From Nitrospira sp. (GTDB lineage: Bacteria; Nitrospirota; Nitrospiria; Nitrospirales; Nitrospiraceae), in contig CP092079.1 of the NCBI GenBank assembly GCA_022226955.1, positions 1,012,015 to 1,076,014 of the forward strand: a DNA stretch of 64,000 nucleotides, read 5' to 3'. Each line of letters begins with the position of its first letter. Position 1 is the stretch's first letter. The notes below the pieces were generated by a model that made no database searches, was not told the origin of the DNA, and worked only from the letters and a program-made list of their open reading frames with translations. The position numbers were made by a program, and so were the translations under genes. Below are positions 25,416-29,725 of this stretch, piece after piece.

Positions 25416-26519
25416 CTAATCGATCCAATCTTTTTCTTTGAGTTTTCTCGGCAGATACTTTTTGGTCAGATACTGGAAATCTTTATTCGCCAATGAGTCC
25501 AGCTCGTACTTCAGTCCGCTGGTCAGCATGCGCTTGATCTCCGCCTGCCAGGCCGGCTTCTGGAACCATTGGTAGTTCATCAGCTCCTTTGCACGCGCAA
25601 TATCCTTCTCGTTCAACTTGATCCCGACATTGCGCGGCAACTCGTACCGCTCCGGATCGGCGGACGACAGACCGATGAATTTGGCTTTCGGAATCGCCAT
25701 GCGCTGACTCTCGAACGCAAGATTGATCGAGCCCTGTTTGATCACGGAATAAATGTAGTATCCCCAAGGATCGTTATCGACCAGCACATACACCGGCAAC
25801 TTGTGCTCTTCATGAAGCCGTCTCGCCAGGCGGCGGACTCCGCGCGGCGGCTGGCCGTTGCCGGTCAGGAGGACACAGTTATACCGCCGCCAAAACTTAT
25901 CCTCCGACAGACGATTCCACTGCGTCCCTTTTTCCACCAGCAAGAGAAAATCTGCGGTGCAGCGGCGGATTTCCAGATACTCCGGTTCGACAATCGAGGG
26001 AACGGAGTAGCCGCCCTTGCCGAGCTTGGCGCAATCCACCCGGTCGCCGTCATCGCCGAACACGACCGGCCCGACGATGCTGCCGCTGTTTTCCGCGCGC
26101 ACATGCAGCTCTTCCCGCAAGGCCGCGAGTGACACCTCCAGGTCCTCGATGACCGGGTCCGATTCGTCTTGCGTGTCGAACGTGTTCTCGTGGGAGTCTT
26201 GAATGGTGTGTTTCGTACGATAGTAAATTTCCCGCAACGACGTCGTCAGATCCGCGCGCTGCAATTCGGACAGGGCATCGGCAACCAACACCGTCTGCAT
26301 GAACTTCTTAGCCATGCCGACGTTGAAGAATGACCGGGCCTGTTTCTTACTCCCCATTTCAATGAGCCCTTTGCGCTCATTGAAGGAGACGTTCGACAAG
26401 GCGCGAATGGGAATCGCGAACGTCGGGTCTTTTGACCGGTCTGCCGCCGCAACGACAATGTCCGCCAGGCCGATGAGCTTCTTTTCGACAGCGGTCGTCT
26501 TTTTCTGTTTCGTCGCCAT
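25416..26519 (-). CDS. top6A: DNA topoisomerase VI subunit A
   Basis: A 367-residue Spo11/Top6A family protein, the DNA-cleaving subunit of type IIB topoisomerase VI. The 5Y-CAP winged-helix domain holds LREIYYRTK with the catalytic tyrosine at 99 or 100. The Toprim domain has the metal Glu in LLVEKGTQWN and the DxD in VLVDNDPWGYYI. Both halves of the active site are intact. The following gene upstream is top6B, only six bases away. Topoisomerase VI is typical of archaea and plants and occurs in few bacterial lineages, so this is a probable old transfer. Confidence 0.93.
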   Translation of the reverse strand: MATKQKKTTAVEKKLIGLADIVVAAADRSKDPTFAIPIRALSNVSFNERKGLIEMGSKKQARSFFNVGMAKKFMQTVLVADALSELQRADLTTSLREIYYRTKHTIQDSHENTFDTQDESDPVIEDLEVSLAALREELHVRAENSGSIVGPVVFGDDGDRVDCAKLGKGGYSVPSIVEPEYLEIRRCTADFLLLVEKGTQWNRLSEDKFWRRYNCVLLTGNGQPPRGVRRLARRLHEEHKLPVYVLVDNDPWGYYIYSVIKQGSINLAFESQRMAIPKAKFIGLSSADPERYELPRNVGIKLNEKDIARAKELMNYQWFQKPAWQAEIKRMLTSGLKYELDSLANKDFQYLTKKYLPRKLKEKDWID

Positions 26520-26525
26520 GCGGTG

Positions 26526-28556
26526 TTACTTCTTTCCTCTCGGCGCAGCCTTCTTATCCAGTTTCGTCGATTTCCCCTTCGGCTTCTTGTCCGTGGCTCC
26601 CTTATCGGTGGACAAAGCCGGCGGTGGCGCATTCCCCTTCTTGTCTTTTGGCGTAGAGGAATCTGCCTTATGCGGCGTGATAACCATGGTCTCCGCCGCC
26701 GGTGCGACCGATGCCTGCACCTGCGTGGCCAGTTCAATTTCGCCTTCCACGCCTTCGGCGGTCACAATGATCGAATGGGGCAAGCCTTCCGGCCCCGCGC
26801 CGGTTTTCCCCAGCGCTTCATCTGTTTTGAGGCCGCCTGTGCGGGACGTGGCAATCTTCTGGAGCTGCGCTTTCAACTTCTCTTTGGCAAGAGTGCCGCC
26901 CTTGAGACGATTGCAGGCGTCCACCACTTCTTCGATGTAGAGCTCGAAAATGTTGCGCCGCCGAAATTCGCTGGCCGCGCGCTCCCGCCGCCGCAGGAAC
27001 AACCCCAACCGCCGGCCGCACTCGCGCAACGCGAGGGTAATTTCTTTCTGGATCTCATCGTAGTCCGCAATGGCTTCCTTCGATTCACTCGTGAACGGCA
27101 CCCACACCGATGCCATATGCACGAAGATCACCATCGGTCCGCCCGGCAAGGCGCCGCGCGACTGCGTCACGCCATAATTCTTCCACGACGTACCGAGCAC
27201 GGCCTTGAATGTGGAGCAGGCAGACTGTTGATAGAGCAGCGGAACCCGGTTCGCATAACGGATTACGCGGGCAAGTTCTGAATCCGTCTCCTCATCCTCG
27301 CCTTCCGCTTTCGGCATGGTGGGTTGTTTCGGCTTGGTCTGATCTTCCGGCCTGTGGCCAAACGCCAACCCGGCTTCGATGATAAAGGGATTGCCCCGAT
27401 AGACCGCCGGTGGCCGGCTCACGGCCGTGTAAAACTCGCCTTTGATCTGCTTATATAACCCCGAAAGAATCGCCCGCTCGCCGATCGGAGAAATACAGTT
27501 CGTCGGCGGCGCCATGATCTTGGTGGTTTGAATGGTCTGATAGAGCGTTTCCGCGGCCGGCCCCTTCAGGTCACGCGGCTTCAGGTTCGGAGAAACCTTG
27601 GCAGCCTTGCAGATCTCATCCGCCAGTTGCGGCGAGACCCGGCAGAAATCGCCGGACAGGAAGCTGGAGACTGAATGGCCCTTGCTGTCCTGCAGCATCT
27701 TCAGCAACATGCCGAACTCGATGCCATAAGGATGCGGTTTGATCTCCCGGGGGGACGGCGGCAGCTCGTGGTACGTGCGGGGATATTCCCTCGTCTCGCC
27801 TTCCGGGGGAGAATAGATCAGCCGCACATGCGGATTGGCGATGGACGTCTGCTCCAGCCATTCGTCGACTGACGCCCGGCCCTTTTGATATTTGCCCTCG
27901 ACCTCGATCGAAACCTGCGTGCCTTGCGGCTGGCTCCATTCAATCTGTTTATTTTCATGAACGAGCGGCTCGTTCTTCTTCGTATCGATTTGCACTTCAA
28001 AATAATGGGCAACCGCCTTCGGCCCGGTGCGGGAAATAATCTTGACCGGTTTCCCCGTCGTCAGTTGCCCGTACATGCCCGCGGCTGAAATCCCAATGCC
28101 CTGCTGGCCCCGGCTCATCCGCATGCGGTGGAACTTCGAGCCATAGAGCAGCTTCGCGAAGATCCGTGGGATATGCTGGCGGACGATGCCCGGCCCGTTG
28201 TCCGTGACCGTGATGCGGAATCTGGAGGCCTGACTGGGTGCGACCGGCGCGCCGTTGGACACCACCTCCAGCTTGACGGTGACTTCCGGAAGAATCCCGG
28301 CTTCTTCGCAAGCATCGAGCGCGTTATCGACCGCTTCCTTCACGCACGTCAGCAACGCCTTGCGCGGGTTATCGAACCCGAGCAAATGCCGGTTCTTGGT
28401 AAAGAACTCGGAGACGGAAATTTCCCGCTGGCGCGCCCCCATCTCGGCGGCGGTTACCTGTTGAACCGGTTTGGCGGCAGCCTTCTTCTGACCGGCTGAT
28501 TCAGAAACGGATTGAGCGGCAGACGCAGACTTCACAACCGAACGCACAGTGGCCAT
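26526..28556 (-). CDS. top6B: DNA topoisomerase VI subunit B
   Basis: A 676-residue GHKL ATPase subunit of topoisomerase VI. ATP binding closes the clamp that passes one duplex through another. The Bergerat fold shows CVKEAVDNALDACEEAG (N box), VTDNGPGI (G1) and GQQGIGISAAGMYGQ (G2). A helix-two-turns-helix region and transducer domain follow, with the switch lysine region near residue 480-500. The last 100 residues are Lys/Pro/Ala-rich, a tail not needed in archaeal enzymes. The ATG at 28556 follows GAGAGGGTGA. It is the first gene of a top6B-top6A-helicase operon and borders the DnaA-box region. Confidence 0.94.
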   Translation of the reverse strand: MATVRSVVKSASAAQSVSESAGQKKAAAKPVQQVTAAEMGARQREISVSEFFTKNRHLLGFDNPRKALLTCVKEAVDNALDACEEAGILPEVTVKLEVVSNGAPVAPSQASRFRITVTDNGPGIVRQHIPRIFAKLLYGSKFHRMRMSRGQQGIGISAAGMYGQLTTGKPVKIISRTGPKAVAHYFEVQIDTKKNEPLVHENKQIEWSQPQGTQVSIEVEGKYQKGRASVDEWLEQTSIANPHVRLIYSPPEGETREYPRTYHELPPSPREIKPHPYGIEFGMLLKMLQDSKGHSVSSFLSGDFCRVSPQLADEICKAAKVSPNLKPRDLKGPAAETLYQTIQTTKIMAPPTNCISPIGERAILSGLYKQIKGEFYTAVSRPPAVYRGNPFIIEAGLAFGHRPEDQTKPKQPTMPKAEGEDEETDSELARVIRYANRVPLLYQQSACSTFKAVLGTSWKNYGVTQSRGALPGGPMVIFVHMASVWVPFTSESKEAIADYDEIQKEITLALRECGRRLGLFLRRRERAASEFRRRNIFELYIEEVVDACNRLKGGTLAKEKLKAQLQKIATSRTGGLKTDEALGKTGAGPEGLPHSIIVTAEGVEGEIELATQVQASVAPAAETMVITPHKADSSTPKDKKGNAPPPALSTDKGATDKKPKGKSTKLDKKAAPRGKK

Positions 28557-29068
28557 TCACCCTCTCGCAGCAGCAGATGGAAAAGTGGGCGGCATTGTAC
28601 CCAGATTGTCCCACCGAAAAACCCCTCGTAGCAGGATCGAAAACGACCTGATGGCAAAGAGCAGATTCGCAGGCAGACTGGCGAGCCGCCGACACGCTGT
28701 TAGGGTGGGAGGAGCACGCACCTACCGAGGATCAGCAGGTACGGCGGAGATCTCGGGAGAGCATTAGGCTTCCCAGTACAAGCTGGTCATGCACACCGCT
28801 CTCACACTCAACCCCCTTATGAACCATATTCCCCCGGGGCGTTAACTCCCCCCACATGACTAGACTAGGCCCATGACAGGAGTGAGTCAAGAGCACACCT
28901 GCCGATAGGAGTGAATACTCGCACGACACTCTGCCAGAATACTCGACGCGATCGCTTGGCGGCAGAAACGCTGCGATCGCTTCAAGAAATTTCTGTGTCC
29001 CCTGTGCAGAAACCTGTTTCAGAAATAGCAAGAGCCGACCGAACAAACCCGACGATTTCAGTGCAGAC

Positions 29069-29109
29069 TGAAATAATATTTTTGACGGAAGAATAAAAAT
29101 ATTATTTCA
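29069..29109. repeat. AT-rich palindrome, 15-bp arms
   Basis: The arm at 29069-29083 (TGAAATAATATTTTT) is perfectly repeated in inverse at 29095-29109 around an 11-base spacer. It is almost pure A/T, so it melts easily. It could act as a DNA unwinding element next to the DnaA boxes, or as an operator. Confidence 0.6.
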
Positions 29110-29224
29110 CCGCGCACTATTCGTAGCCGCTACGTGAATGAATGCGCCGGACCCCTCAAAAACCAACTACTTCCACGTTACATCTTTCATTCAGCACTCA
29201 ATCAATGGATAACTCCCCAACTTC

Positions 29225-29233
29225 TGTGGATAA
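29225..29233 (-). promoter_or_regulatory. DnaA box, perfect TTATCCACA
   Basis: Reads TGTGGATAA on the plus strand, the exact complement of the consensus. A second, weaker TGGATAA lies at 29206-29212. Confidence 0.7.
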
Positions 29234-29369
29234 CACTGTGCATGAGCGTCCTGTTGTCGTTGAAATGGCTGATTTGAGCAGTTCAATGAGCTGATTGCCT
29301 AATAAATAGGCATTGTGCCTCAATCGACTGACCCCCTATATTTAGCGGCTTGACGGATGATTCTTTTTC

Positions 29370-29378
29370 TTTTCCACA
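29370..29378 (+). promoter_or_regulatory. DnaA box variant TTTTCCACA
   Basis: One mismatch to TTATCCACA at the third position, within the same cluster as the perfect box at 29225. Confidence 0.5.
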
Positions 29379-29461
29379 ATCCCTGGGCGATATGGATTCA
29401 GAAGCGACCGACTGATCGAAACCAATTTGTCTAGGGCCTAATAGTCCCAATTCAGCCCCAC

Positions 29462-29470
29462 TTATGCACA
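29462..29470 (+). promoter_or_regulatory. DnaA box variant TTATGCACA
   Basis: One mismatch to the consensus (C to G at position 5). This variant is commonly bound by DnaA in other bacteria. Confidence 0.5.
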
Positions 29471-29485
29471 GCAACCGGCCCCCTC

Positions 29486-29494
29486 TGTGGAGAA
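29486..29494 (-). promoter_or_regulatory. DnaA box variant TTCTCCACA
   Basis: Reads TGTGGAGAA on the plus strand, one mismatch to the consensus, 15 bases after the TTATGCACA box and on the other strand. Confidence 0.45.
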
Positions 29495-29548
29495 ACCATC
29501 AGAATTTCGTGAATATTTTGGCCTTTTCGTTGAAATCGGCGGTCATCG

Positions 29549-29725
29549 CTATTTTTTTCGATAGACATTCAATCCAACTTTTTCTTCGCGCCCCGGAATC
29601 GTCACATTACCTTCTGTTGAAGCGATGATAATGGTCTTTCCCGATGAAGAGGGGCCAAACTCTTTCGATAGATCAACTTTCATTGTCAGAATGGTTCCCT
29701 CGACGGTCATCTCAACATTCTTCAT
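29549..29725 (-). CDS. Small conserved-looking protein (58 residues)
   Basis: A short frame with AGGAG six bases before the ATG. The product starts MKNVEMTVEGTILTMKVDLS, continues KEFGPSSSGKTIIIASTEGN and ends GLNVYRKK. The SGKTIIIASTEGN part is a pattern I recall from a family of tiny bacterial proteins of unknown function; it is not a true P-loop, since no G-4x-GK spacing exists. It looks like a single small beta sheet. It lies at the edge of the DnaA-box region, on the minus strand. Not previously in reach of minimum-length gene callers. Confidence 0.75.
   Translation of the reverse strand: MKNVEMTVEGTILTMKVDLSKEFGPSSSGKTIIIASTEGNVTIPGREEKVGLNVYRKK

Follow-up and report, generated by a model that had tools for sequence, protein, structure and literature searches.

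The window analysed here is a stretch of 64,000 nucleotides (contig positions 1,012,015-1,076,014) from the genome of a Nitrospira sp. assembled as a single contig of 3,635,119 bases. Within it, a cluster of DnaA boxes is situated between a 6S-like RNA gene, next to the genes of topoisomerase VI, and a 58-codon ORF (Table 1). When at most one mismatch to TTATNCACA was allowed, six DnaA boxes were found within 492 bp, between positions 29003 and 29494, and two of the six were perfect. A preliminary description of this DNA had reported one perfect and three one-mismatch boxes relative to TTATCCACA, all of which we recovered in place. Two others that it had called weaker, at 29003 and 29237, also have a single mismatch to TTATNCACA, but conservation of the box at 29003 was not found in relatives. 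The AT-rich palindrome that it mentioned is present, with 24-nt arms that are 83% complementary, and dnaA is indeed outside the window, as the sole copy is located at contig position 2,154,653. The region had been presented as non-coding, which holds for the part with the boxes, although the 6S-like RNA gene and the 58-codon ORF flank them.

Fewer than one box per kilobase had been expected by chance, in agreement with the 0.35 per kb (at most one mismatch to TTATNCACA) that we counted over 1.28 Mb of the genome. The cluster was the densest in this 1.28 Mb sample, where the runner-up 500-bp stretch had three boxes, and 2000 draws from a local Markov control gave a mean of 0.5 boxes and a maximum of 3, never 6. 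The whole window contained 7 boxes with at most one mismatch to TTATCCACA against 7.0 expected, which is no excess, so the clustering alone is the unusual feature. Perfect copies of TTATCCACA were not enriched genome-wide either, with 11 occurrences versus 9 for the reversed pattern.

Table 1. Features in and around the DnaA-box cluster, in window positions.
Feature	Position	Strand	Remarks
Topoisomerase VI, both subunit genes	25416-28556	-	Widely conserved in Nitrospira
6S-like RNA gene	28707-28853	-	Neighbour, outside the element
DnaA box, one mismatch to TTATNCACA	29003-29011	-	Not conserved
AT-rich palindrome	29060-29118	.	Partly conserved in the four closest relatives compared
Whole conserved element	29214-29527	+	29214 is the first base of TCCCCA; match to model R1 at 29215-29527
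DnaA box, perfect TTATCCACA, first of the tandem pair	29225-29233	-	Core (almost) invariant across the 34 aligned copies
DnaA box TCATGCACA, second of the tandem pair	29237-29245	-	One mismatch to TTATNCACA; TGTG invariant in the 34-copy alignment
Palindrome TTGCCTAATAAATAGGCATT	29295-29314	.	Starts 72-73 bp from the tandem pair in 46 of 47 copies
Second palindrome, imperfect, CCCCCTATATTTAGCGGC	29332-29349	.	CCaCnAnTAATAGTGG in relatives
Box TTTTCCACA	29370-29378	+	One mismatch to TTATCCACA; within a conserved T-rich block
DnaA box TTATGCACA, third conserved box	29462-29470	+	Perfect against TTATNCACA, one mismatch to TTATCCACA; TATNCACA invariant in the 34-copy alignment
DnaA box TTCTCCACA, fourth conserved box	29486-29494	-	One mismatch to TTATCCACA; head-to-head with the third
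58-codon ORF	29549-29725	-	No Pfam hit, no significant NCBIfam hit

Of the neighbouring genes, those of DNA topoisomerase VI encode an enzyme best known from archaea. The 6S-like RNA gene between the topoisomerase VI B gene and the box element is 82-95% conserved in the genus, and a consensus of 12 sequences folds as one rod (-61 kcal/mol). Its score with the Rfam 6S model is 31 bits, below the cut-off of 46.4, and none of the 6S-like loci of 19 relatives passed this cut-off, so Rfam appears to miss the 6S RNA of Nitrospira.

Comparative analysis shows the sequence at 29214-29527 to be one copy of a conserved non-coding DNA element of roughly 300 bases, which a sequence-only model of the element (R1) matched with 136 bits (whole-genome E 1.2e-39). 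The element consists, in this order, of a tandem box pair, a TGCCTA...TAGGCA palindrome, a CCaC...GTGG palindrome, and a head-to-head box pair. In an alignment of 34 copies, the 5′ module reads TCCcCA..tTcTGTGGATAA-N3-TGTG.A..A, the two tandem boxes being 12 bp apart, the middle modules comprise the TGCCTA-TTTTTT-TAGGCAT palindrome, CCaCnAnTAATAGTGG and a T-rich block, and the 3′ module has TATNCACAG with CTGnGGA exactly 22 bp on. These modules are kept between copies and species that are otherwise 40-60% identical, and in many copies similarity runs about 100 bp further beyond the last box. The same boxes are in register in the four closest relatives, while the match at 29370-29378 is, as a DnaA box, confined to this clade, the T-rich block around it being conserved. 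The tandem pair, TNNTNCACA-N3-TTATNCACA, occurred in 58 of 79 Nitrospira genomes and its reversed control pattern in none. The 12-bp tandem pair also directly precedes dnaA in N. moscoviensis and, in a diverged form, in this Nitrospira sp. genome. An RNA gene was rejected as an explanation: Rfam gave no significant match over the boxes, and the element alignment, taken as RNA, showed neither a stable nor a covarying fold, with a consensus energy of -1.9 kcal/mol and no compensatory pair.

The distance between the tandem pair and the third box was 219-220, 227-231 or 237-244 bp, with no copies at 232-236 bp, and these classes are about one helical turn apart. In this Nitrospira sp. genome the distance is 239 bp, as is common in other genera. 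As a crude test of phasing, with shared ancestry ignored throughout, a Rayleigh test with a 10.5-bp period was significant: p was about 3e-19 over the full set of 70 values, 4e-4 when restricted to other genera, and 0.02 with every distance entered once. Independent spacing changes are few. The spacing between the third and fourth boxes was 22 bp in all 43 measurable Nitrospira copies, and the same inner spacing was found in other genera where it could be measured.

Model R1 matched 77 of 79 Nitrospira genomes, including all 49 good ones, with 1-10 matches per genome. Across the order Nitrospirales, matches were present in 134 of the 147 genomes and in 24 of the 29 genera, most of the relatives compared being draft assemblies, and a phylum-wide search returned few, short and weak matches outside the order. 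The genome studied here has one full copy and a weak partial match (contig position 1,178,100, E 0.005). Half-elements with only the tandem pair and the palindromes also exist. Copies within one genome are 45-66% identical and most are closer to counterparts elsewhere (in other species, up to 81%), which suggests that they are old loci, separately maintained. In 17 single-contig genomes, for several of which the chromosome length is known only to two digits, 38 copies were located 62 kb to 2.3 Mb from dnaA. A post hoc look at these distances placed 14 of the 38 at 0.47-0.63 of the half-chromosome from dnaA, with uniformity not clearly rejected (KS p 0.056). Our literature searches gave no description of the element in Nitrospira.

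The preliminary description had raised the possibility that the cluster is an oriC moved away from dnaA, and the dense boxes on both strands, the AT-rich palindrome and the long intergenic region speak in favour of it. However, GC skew, which we sampled along the chromosome, was negative from about 1.0 to 2.49 Mb and became sharply positive near 2.4875 Mb, as at an origin, with a gradual, terminus-like zero crossing around 0.9-0.97 Mb. The cluster, at 1.041 Mb, lies near this diffuse maximum, about 1.45 Mb from the skew minimum and 1.11 Mb from dnaA; a skew minimum elsewhere is among the outcomes that the preliminary description had itself named as refuting an origin. In N. moscoviensis NSP M-1, an isolate, and in the genome G059, skew reaches its minimum at dnaA, where the record starts, and copies of the element are found 0.57 to 2.1 Mb from dnaA. 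The presence of several copies per genome at unrelated loci also argues against an origin. Even though the skew minimum of our genome is itself about 330 kb from dnaA, so that origin and dnaA may be separated here, we consider it exceedingly improbable that the cluster is oriC. We also rejected a terminus-specific element: the element is close to the skew maximum in this genome and in that of N. moscoviensis, but in G059 it is not.

The sharp skew switch at about 2,487,500, 330 kb from dnaA, has no DnaA-box cluster and adjoins a divergent gene pair, a transporter-like ORF and a sigma-factor-like ORF followed by a groES-like one; it would mark either an origin that has been displaced or the breakpoint of an inversion or of the assembly. 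At 3.24-3.635 Mb and at 0-0.25 Mb the skew is of mixed sign, which gives the impression of a rearrangement or misassembly. With the skew disturbed and dnaA 330 kb from its minimum, an inversion or misassembly is possible.

DnaA could also act at this site as a transcription factor for its neighbours, either the 6S-like RNA and topoisomerase VI or the 58-codon ORF. The element does lie between the 6S-like RNA and top6BA genes and the ORF, and the ORF adjoins many copies in other species, including most of an initial set of 30 copies. Yet the element is not upstream of top6B in most Nitrospira, its position is past the 3′ end of the 58-codon ORF, and other copies adjoin unrelated genes, making this role distinctly improbable. 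A function tied to topoisomerase VI was rejected since an array upstream of top6B is limited to the closest relatives, N. moscoviensis and one further MAG. The DNA of the 58-codon ORF retains 74-79% identity in other Nitrospirales families; an ancient linkage of this ORF to the element was rejected because two members of another family have the ORF with no element within about 9 kb. Several non-coding copies per genome at different loci, with palindromes, might instead be remnants of a MITE-like mobile element carrying DnaA boxes, but the low identity of copies within one genome, most of them closer to those of other species, and the limitation of constraint to the modules make such an origin very unlikely. 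Another proposal is that the element holds binding sites for a Nitrospirales protein that organises or segregates the chromosome, as a centromere-like site or a nucleoid anchor, with DnaA as one partner or absent. The two conserved palindromes and the strict geometry, not needed for DnaA boxes alone, are consistent with such a protein, as are the distribution of copies over the chromosome and the half-elements with only the pair and the palindromes. Still, the DnaA boxes hold most of the invariant positions and the same tandem pair is found at the dnaA promoter, so we regard this proposal as rather unlikely.

On balance, we lean towards the reading that 29214-29527 is a copy of a multi-copy non-coding Nitrospirales element that would bind DnaA away from the origin. 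A DnaA-titrating locus, the other suggestion of the preliminary description, is a better candidate than oriC and is strengthened by the order-wide conservation of the element. In an alignment to 1j1v, the structure of E. coli DnaA bound to its box, this genome's DnaA preserves the E. coli DNA-recognition segment (RRS.., FGG.DHTT), suggesting that TTATNCACA should be its site. The genome has a single protein matching the Bac_DnaA family; Hda, and with it the Hda-dependent shut-off of DnaA known in E. coli, is therefore probably absent here, and other forms of DnaA control may weigh more without it.

We propose that DnaA would bind to each box group, the tandem pair and, on a fixed helical face some 240 bp from it, the head-to-head pair, and that HU/IHF-type proteins (four genes of this family are present in the genome) or a protein reading the two palindromes would bend the DNA, bringing both groups into one looped DnaA complex. 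The fixed helical face of the two groups is what suggests the loop. As each copy is replicated, the complex would sequester DnaA or switch it between the ATP and ADP states, and this would influence when oriC fires again. We infer DnaA binding, looping and a role in titration or activity control from sequence, in which titration, ATP hydrolysis and nucleotide exchange are indistinguishable. Some observations count against this reading. In E. coli, the neighbourhood of the origin is enriched in DnaA boxes, as titration would predict (PMC12371093), whereas copies of the Nitrospirales element are mostly far from dnaA. DnaA boxes do not account for the 3′ flank or for the two conserved palindromes, genomes differ in copy number (1 to 10), half-elements occur, and perfect TTATCCACA shows no genome-wide enrichment.

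Among known systems, datA stimulates hydrolysis of DnaA-ATP and DARS stimulates the release of ADP, and their IHF (and Fis) sites are at defined positions. In E. coli, datA contains five DnaA boxes together with an IHF site. DARS1 and DARS2 have a core of three boxes in common, to which DARS2 adds sites for IHF and Fis, and in all three loci the boxes are conserved while the spacers vary (PMC4585315). The Nitrospirales element is likewise a non-coding DnaA-box cluster outside oriC with conserved boxes, but datA is a single locus, studied in E. coli, whereas our element has several copies, two conserved palindromes and the 22-bp head-to-head pair. With DARS it shares a non-coding position away from the origin and conserved boxes with variable spacers, but the number and arrangement of boxes differ. 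According to the account in PMC5295017 (citing Okumura 2012), B. subtilis has six DnaA-box clusters outside oriC, and their joint deletion leads to early initiation. Several clusters per chromosome occur in relatives, and this genome has one full copy and the weak partial match; as far as that account extends, the B. subtilis loci are described as box clusters and no shared fixed-geometry element is reported (PMC5295017). The element resembles oriC and the dnaA promoter in its DnaA boxes and in the 12-bp tandem pair found upstream of N. moscoviensis dnaA, but it is off the skew minimum and multi-copy. The best reading appears to be that it is akin to datA, DARS and the Bacillus clusters by position and content, and we do not class it as datA or DARS, which are defined by biochemical activities, nucleotide exchange in the case of DARS. 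Compared with all of them, it is multi-copy and order-wide. More tentatively, and with less than even confidence, we suggest that it could be an order-wide, helically phased DnaA nucleoprotein element that acts with a partner protein of its own. It would then differ from datA, DARS and the Bacillus clusters in make-up and perhaps also in function, for instance by organising the chromosome or timing replication along its arms.

Most of what is known about the control of DnaA outside the origin comes from E. coli and B. subtilis, and a conserved, easily recognised element in almost all genomes of an order of slow-growing nitrite oxidisers would be an independent case of such control. DnaA-box clustering alone would misplace oriC in Nitrospira, and the natural variation in copy number and spacing of the element may offer a test of whether DnaA titration sets the timing of replication.
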